From the NCBI GenBank assembly GCA_963576475.1, contig OY754967.1, forward strand, positions 21,973,914-22,037,913: a stretch of 64,000 bases of DNA. The letters run 5' to 3'. Every line of letters begins with the position of its first letter. Position 1 is the stretch's first letter. The stretch is from Molanna angustata. Its lineage: Eukaryota; Arthropoda; Insecta; Trichoptera; Molannidae. Positions 5,736-61,904 of this stretch are shown piece after piece. A model generated the notes under the pieces. It was given only the letters and a program-made list of their open reading frames with translations, had not been told where the DNA came from and did not search any database. Both the position numbers and the translations under genes were made by a program.

Positions 5736-6242
5736 GTATCATCTTCCAGTCTTGTTATGAACATCATAATAAAATATGATTAAAAACAATGGTTTTCAAT
5801 TGCAAAACCAAAAACAAATGACAGCCAACTTGCATTATTTCTCTGTGACATGAATTAGGTAGGTACCTATTAAAAACAAAATTGTAAATACTTTTCTCAC
5901 AATAAATTTAAAAACGAAAGCTATATTGAATCTGGATTGTTTTTACTCTTTTTCTATAGGATGATTTTCATTTATCTCTGATGATTCGTTTCCTTGGGAT
6001 CCTCTTTCCCGACTTCCCATTCATCAGCAGTTGGTGTGCCACTTGATTGGGCGTGACTATGTATGGGTTGGGTCATTACTTAGATTCTTGATTGTTTTGC
6101 ATGCTTTCCTGCTATTTTGTTTTAAATCAAGGTTTTCTATTAGTTTGGACCACTTTTCCGCTCTCGAATTTGATATGGCATGCATCAATCGTTCACCTGT
6201 CTGTGTTGTGGCTTCTGAGAATCATAGAGTTCTCTGTAGAGT

Positions 6243-28624: not shown

Positions 28625-28629
28625 ATTTT

Positions 28630-28653
28630 GTAAGGAGTATAAATACTCCTTAC
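28630..28653 (+). promoter_or_regulatory. LTR-end palindrome with TATA box
   Basis: GTAAGGAGTAT (28630-28640) and ATACTCCTTAC (28643-28653) are perfect inverted repeats separated by AA. The centre reads TATAAATA, a TATA-box sequence. It starts one base inside the LTR end, so it could serve as an integrase end-recognition structure, a promoter or both. The same palindrome is at 37333-37356. Function is inferred. Confidence 0.5.
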
Positions 28654-28702
28654 GACACTCAAATCACACGGCATTGGATTCGGTACAGATGGTGACCTTC
28701 GG

Positions 28703-29010
28703 TGCGCGCGCACCGACACTGTCGCCCCATCGGCAGAGATGAAAAGTACGGGTGCGTGCGCAACAATTCTATCTATATTCCCGTCGAAGGCCGTTCGAGC
28801 TGCGCGCGCCTCAGACGACCGTATCGCCATCGGCAGATATGAGAATTAGAGGTGCGCGCGCGGCGATTTTCGTCTTCTCTCCCATCGAAGGCCGTTCCGA
28901 CCTGCGCGCGCACCGACAGTTTCGCCCCATCGGCAGATATGAGAATTAGAGGTGCGCGCGCGGCGATTTTCGTCTACTCTCCCGCCGTTCCGATCGATCG
29001 GCGCGCGCAA
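28703..29010 (+). repeat. G+C-rich 100-bp tandem array in 5' LTR
   Basis: CATCGGCAGA recurs at 28728, 28828 and 28928, exactly 100 bases apart, within units containing GGTGCGCGCGC and AAGGCCGTTC. About three units occur. The local G+C and CpG content is far above the surroundings. It is duplicated in the 3' LTR at 37406-37713. Confidence 0.9.
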
Positions 29011-29557
29011 GTGACGCCGAGTTGATGTCTGGATTCCCGCCGGCTTTTTTTTCGGTTTTGACTTTGAAAGTATTTTGATCGGAGAAAAATAATATCGAAT
29101 GTGGTGCGATAGAATAATTAATTGAAAATAAAGTAACGGATTAATTGAAAATAAAGTAACTTCAGATCGTTGACAACTTTTTATTCAAAATGTGGAGGTA
29201 TTAGTAACTTAATTATCTTTCACAATTAAACAGTGGTTGAAAGCTAGCACAAAATATAAATTTATTATGGATCAAAAAGATACGTGTTCACACTACACTT
29301 GTGAGAATGATAACTCCAGTGATTAATAATCAAGTGTTGAGATTGAAAAGTAAAATAACCATAGACAGCTCATGTTGATCGGTGTTAATTTTTATCAGAA
29401 TAAAGTTTAAATATTTTTTAATTTTTGCTTTAAAGCATCTTTTTAAAGTTTCGTGTAATTGATATTAATATTGACTGTGATTAATTTGTAAAAGCGTTAT
29501 AATAATGGACGATTTAGAATATCCTGGAATGATTCTACTTTGATGGCTCCCCTCCGA

Positions 29558-29955
29558 GCCAATCGAACTGCTTGGCCTGTAGCTAATATCGAAAGCTTCT
29601 TCTTGCCCGAGTTTAAGATCGACTGTGACACGCACAGCAAGCAATTCAAATATTTGGATGCTATCTCCAAGGTTGCATTTCGCAAAGTACACAAAGTACA
29701 TCATGTTGAATCTAAGAAATTGCTTGCTCTGAGGATTCTGCTCGAGCTCAGATAGTATCCGCGAATTGTTTAAAGCAAGTAAGGGACGAGGTGCGTATAA
29801 AAGAGGTCTGCGGTCGCCATCCTTCATTGTGAGCTGTTTCCTGAAATGGCAGACTGGAGGGAAGCCGTACATAGTCACTGAATTCATTTCCGGTGGTGAA
29901 CTGTCCCATCTCTTGGACAAGTATTTAGTGCTTCTCGAAGAGTCGGTTCGATGCG
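29558..29955 (+). pseudogene. Captured AGC-type kinase fragment in 5' LTR
   Basis: Three + strand frames in succession give one kinase N-lobe. Frame one (to the stop at 29753-29755) has AWPVANIESFFLPEFKI and then AISKVAFRKVHKV (a damaged Gly-rich loop), followed by ESKKLLALRIL. The R codon at 29732-29734 sits where the ATP-binding Lys belongs. Frame two (about 29752-29820) has LKQVRDEVRIKEVCGRHP, a helix-C match. Frame three (about 29821-29952) has FIVSCFLKWQTGG, then PYIVTEFISGGELSHLLDKY, covering strands 4-5 and the hinge. S6K/RSK-type AGC kinases fit best; the parent gene is not identified. At least two frameshifts make it non-functional. Confidence 0.8.
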
Positions 29956-30340
29956 ACGCCGACAAACCCTTCCAAGGCTCCAGGTACCGTCACACCCTTT
30001 TTGTTTATTTTTTTTGTGGAGGTTCAAGATGACACACGCGGCATAATATATTAATTAACTTATTTACGATATATCTCAAATTATTGATTACTAACAAAAA
30101 TAAATTGTATTGACCTTTCGTTGTAGTCATGTATGTAATTGTATCTATGTATAAATTGTATTGAAATTGTATTGGCGGCGTGACAACCCATTCAAGTGAC
30201 CGAGAAATATATTTTGCTAAACCTTAATGTATATATTATTCAACTACCTTAACTTGCAACGAAGACATCCCCTGACGGTGAGAGCGTAGCTCGAACCTGA
30301 GCAGCCGGCAAAGAAGGGCCAACAATTGGACCTTCACACA

Positions 30341-30457: not shown

Positions 30458-31513
30458 ATGAGTGCATCTTCAGCGTGTTCGGTTATCCCCAATGTCAACT
30501 CGTCAAGTGCCGCTACGCTAAAGCATGCGTTGACAGCGCGCGGCGTAGTTCCCAAGCGCGCTCTATCAACGCTTCGGAGGCAGGCCAACGACTACAATAA
30601 AAACCTGGGCCCTGAACTTCCTGAAGTCGCGCCCGTGGTCAGAGCTCAGGCCTCTAGGGACCTCACCCTAGTGATGCAAGCAATACAGACTGATGGCTCG
30701 CTTTTATCTCCACAATTACCCCCAACACCACCTACAAGTTCCTTACTACGTCGGAGGAGCCGATCCCTCCCGCACATCAACACAAACTATAGCACCTGGC
30801 CGGTACCAACGTTTGACGGTTCCGGCGACGCCAGAGAATTCCTTAAAAGGTTAGAGGAGGTGGCCCGCTCCAGACGAGTAAGAGTGGAAGAGCTAACGTT
30901 CGCCCTCCCAGAGTTTCTTCAAGGTAGAGCTCTGGCGTTCTATCGGTTGAAATTTTCCGAGGACGTCTCGTGGCTGGAATTAAAAAAGTCCATTCTTTCC
31001 CGCTTTGAAGCACCAAACTTCATGGAGGAGAGGAGATTGGCGATTTGGAGTTCTGCGCAGAAGCCCCAAGAACCGGCCATAGATTTTATATCTCGCGTCC
31101 AGGAGTTGAACGCGGGGCTGGACGTTCCACTCCCAGAGGCAGATATTATCAGTGTGGTGAAGAGGGGATTACCTCCAGATTACCATTCCCTGCTGGCTGC
31201 GGCTGATCCAACATCTGTAATGGCCATTGAAAGGCTGGTCGCCTCCTTCGACCAACTAAGGAAGCCAGTCTGCCCTCAACCACTTGCTCGCGGACCTACC
31301 GTCACCTCAGTCGCCTTTCCCCCTGCCAAACGTTGCTTCTCCTGCCAACAGGAGGGACACTTTGCCAGGGAGTGCCCTCGCCGACCTATAAGGGACAACC
31401 CTCGCTTCACCCCTCGTCCTGAAGGACAAAACGCCCAGAGGAACTCTCCTTACACCTCGAAATTTTCTCGTCCCCCACCCAAAACCTCTCGCACGACAAA
31501 AAACGCCCAATGA
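30458..31513 (+). CDS. Gag (capsid and nucleocapsid)
   Basis: A 351-residue structural polyprotein of the LTR element, expected to form cytoplasmic virus-like particles and bind the RNA. The ATG at 30458 follows a leader of about 100 bases after the primer site and is the first ATG of a long open frame. The N-terminal third is basic and Ser/Pro-rich. Residues about 113-265 form the capsid-like region (motifs WPVPTFDGSGDAREFLKRLE and FLQGRALAFY, typical of Ty3/gypsy Gag). A CCHC zinc knuckle is C293-x2-C296-x4-H301-x4-C306. The tail is Arg/Pro-rich. The stop TGA (31511-31513) overlaps the pol ATG at 31510. The frame is intact. Confidence 0.95.
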   Translation: MSASSACSVIPNVNSSSAATLKHALTARGVVPKRALSTLRRQANDYNKNLGPELPEVAPVVRAQASRDLTLVMQAIQTDGSLLSPQLPPTPPTSSLLRRRSRSLPHINTNYSTWPVPTFDGSGDAREFLKRLEEVARSRRVRVEELTFALPEFLQGRALAFYRLKFSEDVSWLELKKSILSRFEAPNFMEERRLAIWSSAQKPQEPAIDFISRVQELNAGLDVPLPEADIISVVKRGLPPDYHSLLAAADPTSVMAIERLVASFDQLRKPVCPQPLARGPTVTSVAFPPAKRCFSCQQEGHFARECPRRPIRDNPRFTPRPEGQNAQRNSPYTSKFSRPPPKTSRTTKNAQ

Positions 31514-31553
31514 GCCAATCCCCCGAACACCGTAAGGAGTGGGAGGATTGGCT
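31498..31553 (+). promoter_or_regulatory. Programmed -1 frameshift signal, gag-pol
   Basis: The heptamer A AAA AAC (31498-31504) is in the correct phase for gag (aca-AAA-AAC). An 8-nt spacer (31505-31512) follows. Then comes a stem: 31513-31521 pairs perfectly with 31545-31553, continued after a bulged A44 by 31522-31524 with 31541-31543, giving 12 bp and a 16-nt loop. After a -1 slip the pol frame is open from the heptamer onward. The loop bases GAAC (31525-31528) could also pair with GTTC (31561-31564), which would make a weak pseudoknot. Confidence 0.85.
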
Positions 31554-34500
31554 AAAAACGGTTCAATGCTTCCATAATATATACAACATGAACGCCTTAT
31601 CCATCCGTAACGACCTCTACAGCCGCCCGTTTTTGTCTTGCCGAATTCGTGGCATCCATTTTCGAGCCTTACTGGACACAGGAGCTGCCACAAACGTGTT
31701 GGGAGGTTCCTTGTCATCGAGCCTCGAGAACTTTAAATTAGATTTCTGCCCCACCGGAGGAGTGGTTTATACAGCTGATGCGACCCCCCATACAATCACC
31801 GGGACTATTACTCTTCCACTCTCCTTCGAGAACCGAACCTTGACGGTACCTTTTCGTACAGTACCATCCTTGGAGGACTCGATAATATTGGGTGCTCAAT
31901 TCCTGCGTGACTCAGGCTTGGCCCCCCGACTTTTCCCCGATGCGGACGTAAATATTAATATAAATAAAGAACATGTCGTCATATCGGTCCTCCAGACCCC
32001 CCCCAAGTGCCTTGTATCGTACGACCACCTCTCTGCTACGCAGAAGGGTGGAATAGAAAACATTCGCAGTAGATTCGAAGAGATTTCCTTTGAAAAGAAA
32101 GGACTAGGACGAACCACCCTGGTGTCCCATGTGATTGATACGAACGACCACCCACCCATTAAACAACGTACGTATCCTATATCCCACGCGCGCCGTCAGC
32201 AGATCATTTCGGAACTCGATAAAATGATAGAACTCGGTGTAGTCGAGCCTAGCCGCAGTCCTTGGCTGAACAACTGTTTTCTCGTTCCTAAGTCAGACGG
32301 TACGGCACGTTTCGTATTGGACCCTCGTCGACTGAACGAAGTAACTACGGCAGACTCATATCGTATCCCCAATATTCTACGAATTTTTGACGATCTAAAA
32401 GACATCAAGTTTCTCACTGCGCTGGACCTGAGCCATGGGTATTGGCAGTTGCCCTTATCGCCAGAGAGCAGACCTAAGACCGCCTTTTTTGTTCCTGGAC
32501 GAGGCCTCTTCCAATATACAGTTTGCCCCATGGGAGCTAAAAACAGTGGTATGGCGATGCAACGATTGGTGGATGAACTCTTTTGTGACGTCCAAGATCA
32601 GGTATATTGTTACCTCGATGATATCCTGATCTGTAGTTCAGATTTCGAATCCCACCTCCAGACCCTTAACATTGTTCTTGACCGTCTTCGTGGAGCAAAC
32701 CTCACCATTAAACTTGCAAAATCGGAATTTTGCAAGGCCTCCCTGAAATACCTCGGACACATTATCGATTCAGAAGGAATCCGCACCGACCCAGAAAAAG
32801 TAAGAGTCATGTTATCCTACCCCAGACCTAAAAACCCGAAACAGGTCCGTGGATTCCTAGGAATGTGTTCTTATTACCGCAGGTTCATAAACAACTTTTC
32901 CCGTATAGCCGCTCCTTTGTGCGCACTCACTAGCTCGAAAATTAAATCCAAAGAATTTTCTTGGACGCCTGAGGCAGAGCAGTCCTTTTGTGCTCTAAAG
33001 GAAGCCATGACCACCGCTCCGGTTTTAAAAACACCCGACTACACTGTTCCCTTTTCGTTAACTTGTGATGCCAGTGCCATAAGCGTTGGCAGCTATCTCT
33101 CCCAAAATATGCCTGATGGGTCCGAACATGTAATCGCCTATTTTTCTCGGAAATTATCTCCCCAGGAACGATCTTACTCGGTGACAGAACGTGAATTACT
33201 GGCCATATTAAATTCTGTCGAACACTTCAGACCGTACCTGGACGGAACTTCGTTCACCGTATACTCTGACCACGGATCCCTGAAGTACCTGACAAGCATG
33301 GAATCTCCATCAGGCCGATTGATGCGGTGGAGCTGCCGCCTGTCCCAGTACGATTTTCAAATTGTCTACAAGAAGGGCAAAGAGAATAACTTAGCCGATG
33401 GGCTCAGTCGAATTGAATTGGACAATCTCAGTCTAGTGGAACCCTTTGATGGTTCTACAGACCCTTGGTATAGTAAAATAAAGAAGAGTACAATGACTGA
33501 TCCGGCGTCAGTTCCTGGATTTATGTACAAGGATAATCACTTGTACCGTTATTCAAATTCAAAGCACGACCCTCTTACTGGTAACGACCGCTGCTGGAAA
33601 GTAGTAGTTCCTTCTGACCATGTCAACCCCTTAATCCAGACGACTCATGAATTCCTGTGCCACGTTGGAGCCCATAAGACCTTTGAATTCCTCTCCAGAA
33701 CTTATTACTGGCGAGGCATGTCTCAATCCATCCGTCAATTTCTTTCACACTGTGACATTTGCAAGGCGTATAAACCGAACCGCCAACCACCCTTAGGACT
33801 CATGACCGTCCCCAAAAAAGTTAATCGGCCGATGCAATCTCTCTCAGCCGACCTAATTGGTCCATTGCCACTCTCCAAACGTCGAAACATGTACATTCTC
33901 TCCGTCGTGGACGTGTTTTCAAAATTTGTCTGGGCTTTCCCCTTGCGCCACGCCAATTCTAAAACAATTATTAAACTGATCGAAGAAAACATTTTCCTAC
34001 CTTATTCTATTCCGCGAACAATGATCCTGGACAACGGAAAACAGTTTGTCAGCAAGGAATTCAAAACGTTCCTCGAAAACTACGGTATAAAAGATCTGTT
34101 CTACAACGCCCTGTACCATCCCCAAAATAATGTCGTTGAAAGGTACAACGCATCTATCGTCACTGCCCTGTCTATCTCTGTGCAAGATGACCAGAGAGGC
34201 TGGTGTGGCCACCTTCCCAAAATTTGCTCCGTATTAAATAACACCGTTAACGCAACCACAGACCACTCACCCTTTTACCTAATGCATGGATTCCACCCCC
34301 ACCCGCATGCTTCAATGCATGATGTAGAGAACGACCCACATGACCCTCACCACAACTACCCGAGTTATATCAAATCACTTGAGAACCTTGAAACATTATA
34401 CGACCGAGTAACTTCTCACCTATTAACAGCATTCCAAAAGAATGCTAGTCGTTACAACTTAAGGAGGAAGAATTGTGTGCTATCCGTGGGTCAAACAGTC

Positions 34501-34677
34501 TGGAGAAGGAATTTCGTTCTGTCTGATGGAGCCAAGGGCTTTACTTCCAAACTCGCCCCTAAGTTTGTCAAGAATGTGGTACTTCAGTGTGTGTCCGACA
34601 AGATCTACTTACTGGGTAACATGCAAGGTAAACCTTGCGGTCGGTACCACATTAAAGACATAGTCAAAGTCGATTAG
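31510..34677 (+). CDS. Pol: protease, RT, RNase H, integrase
   Basis: A 1055-residue open frame, probably made as Gag-Pol by frameshifting. Protease active site D56-T57-G58. Reverse transcriptase has catalytic D306 (ALDLSHGYWQ) and Y368-L369-D370-D371. RNase H acidic residues are D520, E560, D587 and D630. Integrase has the zinc motif H713-x4-H718-x29-C748-x2-C751 and the triad D781-x59-D841-x35-E877, the normal D,D35E spacing. The C-terminus (about 995-1055) resembles the integrase tail module of gypsy elements, and no chromodomain is evident. All key residues are present and there is no internal stop. The numbering starts at the ATG overlapping the gag stop; the fused product would have a few residues before it. 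Confidence 0.97.
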   Translation: MSQSPEHRKEWEDWLKTVQCFHNIYNMNALSIRNDLYSRPFLSCRIRGIHFRALLDTGAATNVLGGSLSSSLENFKLDFCPTGGVVYTADATPHTITGTITLPLSFENRTLTVPFRTVPSLEDSIILGAQFLRDSGLAPRLFPDADVNININKEHVVISVLQTPPKCLVSYDHLSATQKGGIENIRSRFEEISFEKKGLGRTTLVSHVIDTNDHPPIKQRTYPISHARRQQIISELDKMIELGVVEPSRSPWLNNCFLVPKSDGTARFVLDPRRLNEVTTADSYRIPNILRIFDDLKDIKFLTALDLSHGYWQLPLSPESRPKTAFFVPGRGLFQYTVCPMGAKNSGMAMQRLVDELFCDVQDQVYCYLDDILICSSDFESHLQTLNIVLDRLRGANLTIKLAKSEFCKASLKYLGHIIDSEGIRTDPEKVRVMLSYPRPKNPKQVRGFLGMCSYYRRFINNFSRIAAPLCALTSSKIKSKEFSWTPEAEQSFCALKEAMTTAPVLKTPDYTVPFSLTCDASAISVGSYLSQNMPDGSEHVIAYFSRKLSPQERSYSVTERELLAILNSVEHFRPYLDGTSFTVYSDHGSLKYLTSMESPSGRLMRWSCRLSQYDFQIVYKKGKENNLADGLSRIELDNLSLVEPFDGSTDPWYSKIKKSTMTDPASVPGFMYKDNHLYRYSNSKHDPLTGNDRCWKVVVPSDHVNPLIQTTHEFLCHVGAHKTFEFLSRTYYWRGMSQSIRQFLSHCDICKAYKPNRQPPLGLMTVPKKVNRPMQSLSADLIGPLPLSKRRNMYILSVVDVFSKFVWAFPLRHANSKTIIKLIEENIFLPYSIPRTMILDNGKQFVSKEFKTFLENYGIKDLFYNALYHPQNNVVERYNASIVTALSISVQDDQRGWCGHLPKICSVLNNTVNATTDHSPFYLMHGFHPHPHASMHDVENDPHDPHHNYPSYIKSLENLETLYDRVTSHLLTAFQKNASRYNLRRKNCVLSVGQTVWRRNFVLSDGAKGFTSKLAPKFVKNVVLQCVSDKIYLLGNMQGKPCGRYHIKDIVKVD

Positions 34678-37331
34678 ACGGAAATTACATGTTTTGAACA
34701 TCGTCGAATTCTTCAAAAGTCTACCTCTGAAAACCGCCTGCAGATTGGGGCCTAAAGAATACCTCTGCCATTTTGTAGTTTTGAATGCGGCGTAAAAGGC
34801 CCCGGATCAATCTACATTTTCGGCACCCAATAGGCCGGGTTTAGTAGAATAGGTCTCTCTTGTTATTGTGTTGCGAGCGGAGTAAAAACCTCCGAACAAC
34901 CTCTTATCCCACTCTCTCATGTGATTCACCTTAATATCTTACCTCTCATCTTTCCCATCCCTTGGACACATATTCGCTAGTCATACTTGAATGTGTTGGT
35001 CGCAAGGTTGAATAAAACTGTCCCTTATTCTGTCTGTCCACCTTCCATGTTGCCTTACATAGGTCATCACGTTCTTAGGCTTAAGTTACGTTAGTTTTAA
35101 GATTTTGTCTACGTCTGATTCAAGCAATTGTGAACCATGTACTTGTAATATTTTTTTACCGTCTTACTGTTGATGTCGAAATCCTTACCAGATGGACGTG
35201 TATCTATTATTCTAATTTTGTTTTGTATATGTATATTCGGTCAATATCCGATTACTGTTAATTTTGATGGTGCTCTCACTCTCCCCGTCTAATATTTCCT
35301 TATACGACCGAAGGTATAGGATGAAATTCTCGGGTTCTTGTTTTCCCTTAAATTAAAACAAGTGGCGCCTATTTACTAAATTATTGTGTTTCATGGTCGA
35401 CAAATACGGGCCGGTGTGTATCACCGTTGTCGACTCGGTTATCCCATCCCCCCCAGTACTTCTTGATTTTCTTACTTGTTTGGACTCGTTATTCGTGTAT
35501 AAATGTATCTTTCCGTGACGAATGATGTATGTTCCATGGTATGACAGATGTTGAGCGAAAGATGAGCCTTGTTTCTGACGAATGTGAGTTGAGTGTGTTT
35601 GTGACGAGTCTAGACACTCTGTGACTGTAGTTGATGTTCTTCTTCTTATGATTATTCAGAGTACCCTTGACTGAGCAGTGATCATGTCATATTGTCAGTG
35701 GCAATAATTGTTGTTGTCACCCTTGAGAAAGCATTGTGGAAGAATGATGAGATCTTGGCTGATCACCAGAGATCTGAAGTAGGAGTTGCAGTCTAGCCGA
35801 TGGCTGGGCGAGTATGATCTGACGAGATCATGGATTGTGGAAAATTGTCTCTGAGGACGGAAAAGTGACTAACTTCCTCCGGAGGAGAAATTGTTCTATC
35901 GGTGGTTAAGTCCGCACTTTGAGGTGTAAGTGATTCTACTTACTGGAAACCTCTAGGACGCTCATGGACTACACCGTTTGTTGGGTGATTGCCGATTCTG
36001 CTTGTATAATCACTCATCTGCGGTCTAAGTGAGATATTGAGAATGGGCATCCAAGTGGATTCCGTCTGCCTATTTGGGCAAAGTATATACTGTGTGTTTG
36101 TCAACTGTATTCCACCTTTGAGTTAATGAGTTCCAGTTGTCTGCACACGTGTTCCCGTCTAATATTGTTTGAAGGATGTGTCAACTTTGCACTTTTAAGT
36201 CCTCCTTACATTCCTATTATGTTATTCTAAGTTACGTTAAACATTTTTATACTCGTTTCCACGGTTGCTTGAATCACCGCGTCTATTTTATCACTGTTTT
36301 ATTTTATACTATCTTATCGTACGACTATTTGATGATCCCTAAACCGTTCATTTAAATTAAGCCCGTACCGTTGATGGTGCTTTATATTTTGTCATTATTT
36401 GTATAAATTTGTTACTGCAGAATGGATTGTCACACCGCAACCAATGTTAATTGGAATATAAGAATTAATTATTAAGTATATATTATGTTGTTAGTATATA
36501 AGTTGATAGTTTCGTACGTAGTTTGTAAGTGTCATACTTGAACCAAAAAATATGTATTCCCTCCGTGTAAAGTTAAATATTCCGACAGCAAGAAATTTAA
36601 ACCACTGGTTTTTCTAATCAGTGTCAGTGAAGTGGGGAAAAAGCACTGCCATTTGTTAAAGGGTTTTTCCCACCCAACATCAAGAAACATAGCTTCAGTG
36701 AACCATTGTGTAAATTAGTTTTATATTGAATTTTGTTGATTTTTAATATTTTTTGTCATGTATATAATGTGTTGTACTTGTATTATTATATGATCTTGTT
36801 GGATGAACAACGTTGCTTAATATAGGCAAGCCTTATTATGGCATCTAGTGTTTGCGATAGCGACCTTGTTCATCTGGACTTATAATCGGAGGTCCTTCGT
36901 TGCTCCTGTTAATATTTTTTTTTGTCATGCATACAATGTGTTGTACTTGTATTATTGTATGATCATTGTTGGATGAACGACGTTGCTTGATATAGGCAAC
37001 TCCGATTGTAGCATATCGTTTGCAATAGCGACCTCGTTCATTTAAACTTGTAGTTTGGGCATCATTTTTTCTGTTAATATGTTTCCTTGACGATGAGAAG
37101 GGTTGATCAAACATGCTGATAATTTTTATGGTAAATCTTGTCCATCGTCCTGTCATCGTGTGTCATCAACTACTAAGAACCGAAAGAGAGAGCCTTGGGG
37201 GAATTTTAGTAGTGAGCAGCGACCGCGATCCCTGGATGTTATTACGATTGACGACCTCATCGTCCGAATTGCTAGACGCTAACCGACGTTAACACTTTTT
37301 TTTTCTTTTTTTTTCCCAAGATAAGATGGTG
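34678..37331 (+). other. Long non-coding 3' region of the LTR element
   Basis: No frame over about 70 codons is open on the + strand between pol and the 3' LTR, and none looks like an envelope protein. The sequence is less A+T-rich than the host flanks in its first part. It includes a two-copy repeat of about 167 bp (36741-37080). The purine-rich stretch just before the LTR (37318-37331, AAGATAAGATGGTG) is a weak polypurine tract candidate. It may be an eroded env region or an untranslated packaging region. Confidence 0.8.
36741..37080 (+). repeat. Two-copy tandem repeat, about 167 bp
   Basis: TTTGTCATG (36752, 36921), GGATGAACAACGTTGCTTAA-like (36801, 36971) and CTGTTAATAT (36906, 37071) recur 165-170 bases apart. 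The two units have diverged moderately. Confidence 0.8.
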
Positions 37332-37405
37332 TGTAAGGAGTATAAATACTCCTTACGACACTCAAATCACACGGCATTGGATTCGGTACAGATGGTGACC
37401 TTCGG

Positions 37406-37713
37406 TGCGCGCGCACCGACACTGTCGCCCCATCGGCAGAGATGAAAAGTACGGGTGCGTGCGCAACAATTCTATCTATATTCCCGTCGAAGGCCGTTCG
37501 AGCTGCGCGCGCCTCAGACGACCGTATCGCCATCGGCAGATATGAGAATTAGAGGTGCGCGCGCGGCGATTTTCGTCTTCTCTCCCATCGAAGGCCGTTC
37601 CGACCTGCGCGCGCACCGACAGTTTCGCCCCATCGGCAGATATGAGAATTAGAGGTGCGCGCGCGGCGATTTTCGTCTACTCTCCCGCCGTTCCGATCGA
37701 TCGGCGCGCGCAA
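37406..37713 (+). repeat. G+C-rich 100-bp tandem array in 3' LTR
   Basis: The same three-unit array as 28703-29010, shifted by 8703. Confidence 0.9.
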
Positions 37714-38260
37714 GTGACGCCGAGTTGATGTCTGGATTCCCGCCGGCTTTTTTTTCGGTTTTGACTTTGAAAGTATTTTGATCGGAGAAAAATAATATCG
37801 AATGTGGTGCGATAGAATAATTAATTGAAAATAAAGTAACGGATTAATTGAAAATAAAGTAACTTCAGATCGTTGACAACTTTTTATTCAAAATGTGGAG
37901 GTATTAGTAACTTAATTATCTTTCACAATTAAACAGTGGTTGAAAGCTAGCACAAAATATAAATTTATTATGGATCAAAAAGATACGTGTTCACACTACA
38001 CTTGTGAGAATGATAACTCCAGTGATTAATAATCAAGTGTTGAGATTGAAAAGTAAAATAACCATAGACAGCTCATGTTGATCGGTGTTAATTTTTATCA
38101 GAATAAAGTTTAAATATTTTTTAATTTTTGCTTTAAAGCATCTTTTTAAAGTTTCGTGTAATTGATATTAATATTGACTGTGATTAATTTGTAAAAGCGT
38201 TATAATAATGGACGATTTAGAATATCCTGGAATGATTCTACTTTGATGGCTCCCCTCCGA

Positions 38261-38658
38261 GCCAATCGAACTGCTTGGCCTGTAGCTAATATCGAAAGCT
38301 TCTTCTTGCCCGAGTTTAAGATCGACTGTGACACGCACAGCAAGCAATTCAAATATTTGGATGCTATCTCCAAGGTTGCATTTCGCAAAGTACACAAAGT
38401 ACATCATGTTGAATCTAAGAAATTGCTTGCTCTGAGGATTCTGCTCGAGCTCAGATAGTATCCGCGAATTGTTTAAAGCAAGTAAGGGACGAGGTGCGTA
38501 TAAAAGAGGTCTGCGGTCGCCATCCTTCATTGTGAGCTGTTTCCTGAAATGGCAGACTGGAGGGAAGCCGTACATAGTCACTGAATTCATTTCCGGTGGT
38601 GAACTGTCCCATCTCTTGGACAAGTATTTAGTGCTTCTCGAAGAGTCGGTTCGATGCG
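38261..38658 (+). pseudogene. Captured AGC-type kinase fragment in 3' LTR
   Basis: The LTR duplicate of 29558-29955, with the same frameshifts and the same Lys-to-Arg change. Its presence in both LTRs is expected because both derive from one RNA template. It therefore shows that the fragment belonged to the element before this insertion. Confidence 0.8.
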
Positions 38659-39045
38659 ACGCCGACAAACCCTTCCAAGGCTCCAGGTACCGTCACACCC
38701 TTTTTGTTTATTTTTTTTGTGGAGGTTCAAGATGACACACGCGGCATAATATATTAATTAACTTATTTACGATATATCTCAAATTATTGATTACTAACAA
38801 AAATAAATTGTATTGACCTTTCGTTGTAGTCATGTATGTAATTGTATCTATGTATAAATTGTATTGAAATTGTATTGGCGGCGTGACAACCCATTCAAGT
38901 GACCGAGAAATATATTTTGCTAAACCTTAATGTATATATTATTCAACTACCTTAACTTGCAACGAAGACATCCCCTGACGGTGAGAGCGTAGCTCGAACC
39001 TGAGCAGCCGGCAAAGAAGGGCCAACAATTGGACCTTCACAATTT

Positions 39046-59814: not shown

Positions 59815-61904
59815 TAACAAACTTGGGAACAGAAGATGTATTATATAAATTGACAAAGCACATAAATGAAAATTTAGACATTGGGAAAAAAACATTAACA
59901 ATATTTTTGGATCTAAGAAAAGCATTTGATACCGTTAATCACAATATGTTAATCAAACGTCTAGCTAAAATTGGTATAGAAGGTAAGTGTCTTTTCCTGA
60001 TACGGAGCTACTTAAATGAAAGATTTCAAAAAACTAAGGTAGTTAATAACTATAGCTCGCAGCTTAGAGTTCTCCATGGTGTTCCACAAGGTACGGTTCT
60101 TGGACCGATCCTGTTCCTAGTTTATATAAATGACCTCTGCAACGCTAATATTCCTGGTGAGATAATTTCATTTGCGGATGATTCTTCAATAACCATAAGC
60201 GGACATACCTGGCAAGAAACTTTTGTCAAAGCAGATAGGTGTTTAAGAATTGTAAAATCTTGGTTGAATGAAAGTCTATTATCTCTTAATTGTGATAAAA
60301 CGATGTACCTATATGTATAACATATTCAAATACACAAAGATCAGCGCCTGATGGTAGTGATTCACATACTTTGCGATTCCATAATGTTGGTTGTGATAGC
60401 ACATGCTATAGATGCTCAGAGGTAAAAGCGGTCAACTCCACGAAATACTTAGGCATTACTATTGACTCTTATTTAAGGTGGGACAAGCATATAGATTATG
60501 TATGTAAAAGAATTCGATACTTGGTGTACGTTTTCAAAAGATTGGTTGGTATTGTCAAAACAGATTTAGTCAAAATGACATACTACTGCTTAGTGCAATC
60601 GATTTTAACATATGGTATGATGGCTTGGGGTGGAGCATTTAATAATCATATTGCACCTTTGGAAGTTATCCAAAAAATGTTAGTAAAAAAAATCTACCAG
60701 AAACCAATTAGATTCTCAACTTCGCAGCTTTTTGAAGATAGCAAACTCTTAGATCTGAGGAAACTCTACATACTCCAATGTCTTAAATTTATCCATAAGA
60801 GGCTTCATTTATTCAATCTAAACACACAGAACAGAGTCAGCCAGCGATTAAATAATATGTACAAGGTCCCTAATTATAAAAGGAGAAGGACACAAAGACA
60901 CGCTGTATTTGTTGCACCTAGAACATTTAATAAATTATCCAACTCTTTAAAGACAATCAAGAATCATAAAACTTTTATCAGACATATAAAATCTTGGCTA
61001 CTCACAGACCAATGTAATGTGCAAGAGTATTTGTTGTGATTTTGATTTTTATTACTCGATTTTTTATTTTTGTTTATTTGTTAATTAATTCATTTATCTT
61101 TCAAATTAAATTTTGATTGTTCACTGCTTGTATTATCTGAGTTGATAAATAAATCATACTTTTTGGTTCTTGTCTCCTGACCCTGCTTCTATTATTTTTC
61201 TTTTATTTTTATATAAGTATTTTTTTTCTACTACAGATTTTACTTGTTGGTGTTACAACTCTATTAAAAATTTATTCTGAATTTATTAATATTAATCTAC
61301 TCCTCCTTATTATAATTTGTATTTATTTGTTTCTTACTTGTTGGGTTTTCAATTTGGTGCACTTATGTCTTTCTTTTTCTCAATATTCTGCTCTTGTGTA
61401 AAAGTTCAATGATTTTTTTATATTATTATTATTATTTTTTTTTTTTTAATCACTATTGGAAATTCTCAATTTTAACTAGAAAGTGTAGATTGACTGCGAC
61501 ATGCATATCCTTGTACTTGCCAAGTATTGTTACTATCGACTGCGGGTATAATATTTGGTAGCACCGCTGTCAGTCTGCTGATTCATGTAAACTTATTGAT
61601 GTTTCGTATATAAATATGTGTATGTATATTTTTCATATATAATTTGTATACTTTATATTTTTTGCACTTGTTTCCTGCCTAAGCAATTTGCTATATTTTA
61701 TTTTTATAAATAACTAATGTTACTAACGAAATAATTTTGAATATTTTTAATTGGTATACCCACAGACAGGCTATGCCTTGTGGGATTTTTGTGTGTACGG
61801 TTGATTTATTATTATAATTGATATTATGTTTATGTATATTGTATGTTAACCGTGTACCAAAACTTAAATAAAAAAATAAAAAATAAAATAAATAAAAATA
61901 GTAA
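59815..61904 (+). pseudogene. LINE reverse transcriptase 3' half, one frameshift
   Basis: The first frame (59823-60320, read here from a TTG) encodes the RT fingers-palm: TIFLDLRKAFDTVNHNML with catalytic D30, HGVPQGTVLGPILFLVYIND, and F117-A118-D119-D120 in place of the usual YADD. Near 60310-60320 a shift moves coding to the next frame, which continues through STKYLGITIDSYLRWDKHID and YGMMAWGGAF to the stop at 61037-61039. An untranslated A+T-rich tail ends in an A-rich run near 61904. The endonuclease and 5' half are missing, so the copy is inactive. A CR1/Jockey-like relationship is inferred. The LINE fragments at 42670 and 45618 are relatives. Confidence 0.85.

Follow-up and report, generated by a model that had tools for sequence, protein, structure and literature searches.

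Host mRNA capture by LTR retroelements and retroviruses is known, and the captured sequence is usually described between the LTRs. The case analysed here shares with those captures an intron-less host sequence within an LTR element, but differs from them in that the captured piece, derived from a kinase gene of the S6KL type, lies within the LTR itself and is non-coding. Host-gene capture by retroelements is already known; here the captured piece is a spliced mRNA within an LTR, and no such arrangement was recognised among the open-access papers searched, judged by titles and the starts of abstracts. A second comparison is offered by TART-A, a non-LTR element. TART-A of Drosophila melanogaster captured nxf2, and an antisense piRNA effect on the parent gene was proposed (PMC7785250). 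Both systems consist of a retroelement with a host-gene piece that is absent from relatives and whose flanks are present in a relative; TART-A is telomeric, its capture is recent and its piRNAs have been studied (PMC7785250), whereas the S6KL piece is spliced and sits in LTRs at about 160 places. The kinase type has been described in Drosophila as S6KL, an AGC kinase of the S6K family (PMC4351882). The conserved ATP-site Lys of this kinase corresponds to the Arg of the LTR piece, which further differs from the kinase in having no C-lobe, a shifted frame and a damaged Gly loop. Taken together, our results indicate that the LTRs of a Ty3/gypsy-type family probably hold a reverse-transcribed piece of spliced S6KL mRNA, acquired through a template jump of reverse transcriptase (RT).

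A Ty3/gypsy-type element with a kinase fragment in both LTRs

The window, that is, the whole stretch of DNA analysed, comprises 64,000 nucleotides of Molanna angustata (C3:21,973,914-22,037,913), and the genome searched comprised 995 Mb in 131 contigs. The element in the window has the following parts:

28629..30338, plus strand: 5' LTR, 1710 bp, TG...CA, with ATTT directly before it
28704..28983, plus strand: 2.8 tandem copies of a 100-bp repeat, located in the LTR before the captured span begins (3' LTR copy 37407-37686)
30458..31513, plus strand: gag-like ORF, 351 aa, with Retrotrans_gag and a CCHC zinc knuckle
31510..34677, plus strand: pol ORF, 1055 aa, with protease, RT, RNase H and integrase
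37332..39041, plus strand: 3' LTR, same as the 5' LTR (0 mismatches over 1710 bp), with ATTT directly after it

The ATTT on both flanks is a 4-bp target-site duplication. With its TG..CA LTRs, this short duplication, gag, and the order PR-RT-RH-IN, the element is, on its architecture, a Ty3/gypsy-type LTR retrotransposon, a label given here without a finer clade. The 2.65 kb between pol and the 3' LTR (34678-37331) contained no ORF above 103 aa, and thus no intact frame above that length for the env of an errantivirus or endogenous retrovirus; the 103-aa minus-strand ORF found there had no significant Pfam match (best E 0.039). No relative was found in the viral contig collection searched. The tandem repeat of the LTR is GC-rich and is matched in part by a related LTR, C6; an inverted repeat around TATAAA opens the LTR (28630-28653) and, by eye, is present in C6 as well. 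On the minus strand of each LTR, an antisense ORF of 166 aa runs across the kinase fragment (29465-29965 and 38168-38668). Elsewhere in the window, two ORFs at 59823-61039 look RT-like, of the non-LTR element type, by eye.

The original prediction had placed a fragment of a host AGC kinase at 29558-29955, repeated at 38261-38658, and the repetition was confirmed within the two identical 1710-bp LTRs (0 mismatches). Also as predicted, the pieces of the kinase N-lobe follow one another in order (Gly loop and Lys, helix C, hinge) in three plus-strand frames in both LTRs. The ATP-site Lys is replaced by Arg (ALK in the gene, ALR in the LTR), the Gly loop is damaged (KGAFGKV against KVAFRKV) and the reading frame is shifted. 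The predicted extent was too narrow: the host-derived span runs from about 29102 to 29952. Three blocks within it, about 585 nt altogether, match the predicted S6KL mRNA, and two stretches have been replaced. Its layout is as follows:

29102..29177, plus strand: part of the S6KL 5'UTR, start of the capture, edge approximate (3' LTR copy 37805-37880)
29178..29312, plus strand: non-mRNA sequence where the central part of exon 1, start codon included, would be expected (3' LTR copy 37881-38015)
29313..29381, plus strand: end of S6KL exon 1 joined to the start of exon 2 (3' LTR copy 38016-38084)
29382..29512, plus strand: sequence replacing most of exon 2 in the window copy (3' LTR copy 38085-38215)
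29513..29743, plus strand: last bases of S6KL exon 2 and most of exon 3, with the Gly loop and Lys position (3' LTR copy 38216-38446)
29744..29873, plus strand: the very end of exon 3, followed without an intron by S6KL exon 4 (helix C onward; 3' LTR copy 38447-38576)
29874..29952, plus strand: S6KL exon 5 (hinge), following exon 4 without an intron and broken off within the exon after ~80 nt (3' LTR copy 38577-38655)

An active kinase would need an open frame together with the Gly loop, ATP-site Lys, HRD and DFG, a set that the LTR piece does not have. Because it carries frameshifts and has neither a start codon nor a C-lobe, the fragment cannot make a kinase.

Source of the fragment and edges of the capture

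Searched separately in Pfam, none of the three translated pieces (0/3) gave a match. Joined with X, they matched Pkinase at E 1.9e-6 (27.9 bits, under the curated cut-off of 31.7) and, in the PDB, p70S6K at E 3.5e-9. In separate searches against a small subject set, made up of the S6KL gene of this genome plus three further loci, pieces 1, 2 and 3 matched the gene at 86% over 66 aa (E 7.5e-37), 73% over 22 aa (E 5e-10) and 85% over 27 aa (E 3e-10), respectively. At the DNA level the LTR matched the predicted spliced S6KL mRNA at 88.6% over 430 nt (E 3e-160; LTR 897-1324), which rules out a chance kinase similarity. The kinase similarity on which the original prediction depended is thus above chance, and its source is a host kinase of the S6KL/SGK494 type.

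The parent gene, on contig C11, was located with what we take to be the human SGK494 sequence, and the name S6KL/SGK494 rests on resemblance to it. Exons 1-5 have GT..AG borders and form a single open frame with the Gly loop, the ATP-site Lys and the hinge (Pkinase E 4.7e-18); further exons carry YRD, DFG and APE in a gene traced in part, not to its end. In agreement with the assignment, the gene combines an AGC-type kinase domain and the ATP-site Lys with the lead-in WPV..F.LPEF, a motif presumed from the same human sequence. Against PDB chains, several AGC kinases scored alike, with PKC iota at the top. A tandem array of kinase exons was also seen on contig C27 (~43.995-44.039 Mb), with four places exactly 2353 bp apart and others spaced by ~1.5-3 kb.

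LTR 897-1324 corresponds to S6KL exons 3, 4 and 5, joined without introns at the GT..AG borders of the gene and in sense orientation. As read from these junctions, the source of the capture is spliced S6KL mRNA. When a relic, C25, and the LTR copies were combined, about 777 nt appeared to have been captured, corresponding to the 5'UTR and roughly the first 210 codons.

The edges were read against the C6 LTR, which is 73-78% identical to the window LTR and matches pieces within LTR 2-420 and LTR 1328-1710. Its homology resumes 4 nt past the 3' edge of the capture (LTR 1324), and no S6KL match was found in the 1.5 kb between its matching parts. On the other side, C25 and C6 share LTR-type sequence up to the 5' edge, which lies at about position 5821 of the gene region, directly after TTTCAG; this may mark a start site or a splice acceptor. 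At either end of the fragment, spliced host sequence gives way abruptly to sequence of the element, the configuration expected of template switching. In a DNA search the next downstream S6KL exon was found at one place, the gene, and so the capture is 3'-truncated; its 3' edge carries no poly(A). The sequence at LTR 367-488 was also considered as an upstream 5'UTR exon, and rejected: the S6KL locus was absent among the best 40 of 128 candidates in a search with the upstream piece of C25, and, since C6 shares this sequence, it is read as LTR.

No gag or pol match was found in the 9 kb examined at the C6 locus, and ACAT flanks the LTR on both sides (by eye), which together suggest a solo LTR. 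Its 1.5 kb consist of ~1 kb absent from a further relative, C12, and ~0.5 kb of other sequence. Since this one old relative, with ~0.5 kb of other sequence at that place, is the S6KL-free LTR available, replacement and insertion both fit. The ~1 kb inserted stretch looks LINE-like by eye. Two peptides from C6, considered as another host piece, had no Pfam match (0/2).

Other copies and the age of the capture

Six other loci (L003, L004, L006, L007, C19 and C20) were aligned to the predicted S6KL mRNA. Five of the six (all but C20) gave a contiguous match to mRNA 242-839 at 85-87% with four exon junctions; in these five, exons 1, 2 and 3 are joined and exon 2 is kept, unlike in the window copy. 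C20 matched mRNA 410-839 at 91%, with its upstream pieces broken. The central part of exon 1, which includes the start codon, had no match in the window LTR or in any of the six loci and is present in C25, where ~100 bp of LTR-type sequence adjoin spliced mRNA 63-727 at 93%. A 9-nt absence at the exon 2-3 join is common to C25 and the LTR copies aligned there. We read C25 as a remnant of an early LTR; an independent retrocopy is the less likely reading. In L062 (C19) and L061 (C20), parts of the captured exon 1-2 stretch are present twice. L007 has internal-type sequence on both sides (contig C2, ~14.75-14.76 Mb, with L008), which suggests a tandem LTR-internal-LTR-internal-LTR arrangement.

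To count copies genome-wide, a 39-base pattern from captured exon 5 was searched with up to 2 mismatches. It was found at 160 places, 83 and 77 by strand (0 for the reversed control); one of these is expected to be the parent gene, which differs from the pattern by one mismatch. Among the 100 places listed, 84 could be grouped into 42 pairs on the same strand at distances of 4-14 kb, 35 of them spaced by 8-9 kb, and 16 were unpaired. In line with the original prediction, a piece of a host AGC kinase is thus carried within the LTR, at both ends and in many copies, with the related C6 LTR free of S6KL. The captured mRNA makes up about half of the LTR, where the promoter and the poly(A) signal normally lie, yet the family went on to multiply. 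As the parent gene, a closer relic, older and younger copies and an S6KL-free LTR occur in one genome, they allow the edges to be located and the events to be put in sequence.

Near-identity within LTR pairs (0 differences over 1710 in the window, 1/1640 for L004/L005 and 0/1628 for the tandemly arranged L007/L008) indicates that transposition was recent. The capture looks old from the comparison of LTR copies by which it was to be dated, the main family appearing more distant from the gene than some copies (C19, C20) and the relic C25 are. When exon 3 was searched, the best 40 of 162 candidates ranked the gene at 100%, C25 at 96%, two C20 places and C19 at 93%, and the others at 91-93%. In exons 3-5, C25 and all seven LTRs agree against the gene at eight sites, seven of them synonymous; a rough estimate gives ~0.1 changes per synonymous site. 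These shared sites fit an old capture followed by change of the gene under constraint, or else a donor gene that belonged to another species. An element that arrived with its insert already in place, taken from the S6KL gene of a related species, would account for them and for the common 9-nt absence in the copies aligned at the exon 2-3 join; however, change of the gene after an old capture in its own lineage gives the same pattern, and we consider the foreign donor unlikely.

As for the LTRs themselves, changes in only some of the seven comprised 25 nonsynonymous and 10 synonymous; those in all LTRs comprised 6 and 4 where C25 equals the gene, and 7 and 3 where C25 is missing. In total, 17 of the 55 changes were synonymous (31%, compared with 21% expected if random, in copies that are non-independent). 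By these counts the changes look near-neutral; weak constraint or mutation bias possibly lies behind the difference in synonymous share.

Route of capture and possible effect on the parent gene

From the spliced source and its edges we infer co-packaging, an RT jump, its direction and the order of steps. S6KL mRNA would have been co-packaged in a particle of the element. During minus-strand DNA synthesis, RT would have left the LTR template of the element and moved onto the S6KL mRNA, copied it from mid-exon 5 to its 5' end, and then returned to the LTR template; the captured fragment has since decayed and was carried along passively. A jump at this stage would explain the loss of introns, the sense orientation, the internal 3' edge and the edge in the 5'UTR. 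It would also account for the simultaneous presence in the two LTRs: as a new copy derives both of them from a single U3-R-U5, one event suffices to supply each end with the insert. No intermediate of such a jump was seen.

Alternatively, a processed S6KL pseudogene produced by LINE-type machinery could have inserted into one LTR, with later replication copying it to both ends. The absence of introns and the LINE-like piece (by eye) in the C6 LTR are in keeping with this route. LINE retrocopies, however, are usually truncated at the 5' end and complete at the 3' end, whereas the capture has the opposite shape, keeping the 5' side with the 3' part missing. The mRNA 3' end with poly(A) expected of such a pseudogene was not found, the 3' edge having no poly(A) and the next exon occurring only in the gene, which makes this origin improbable. 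Joining of S6KL genomic DNA to the LTR by read-through or ectopic recombination, as the original prediction proposed, would set host sequence beside LTR sequence, but the introns are missing exactly at the exon borders and the spliced junctions point to an mRNA source, leaving this route scarcely credible.

Compatible with the capture of S6KL mRNA by an RT jump is a use of the fragment by the element, either through antisense small RNAs that lower S6KL or through a sense RNA decoy. Its sense orientation and exact runs of 39, 32, 24 and 22 nt between LTR and mRNA would allow for such a use, and TART-A/nxf2 provides a precedent (PMC7785250). On the other hand, the near-neutral look of the LTR changes speaks against it, and we regard it as quite doubtful. 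Antisense small RNAs against the element could, by analogy with the proposal for TART-A and nxf2, pair with S6KL mRNA; that the LTRs act as a dispersed antisense source, from which small RNAs directed against the family would also strike S6KL mRNA, seems more doubtful still. In this system it can be examined directly whether small RNAs against a transposon are redirected to host genes by the host pieces that it has captured. In terms of complementarity only, of the 845 25-mers of the predicted mRNA piece, 23 matched the LTR exactly, 102 with at most 1 mismatch and 280 with at most 3 mismatches.
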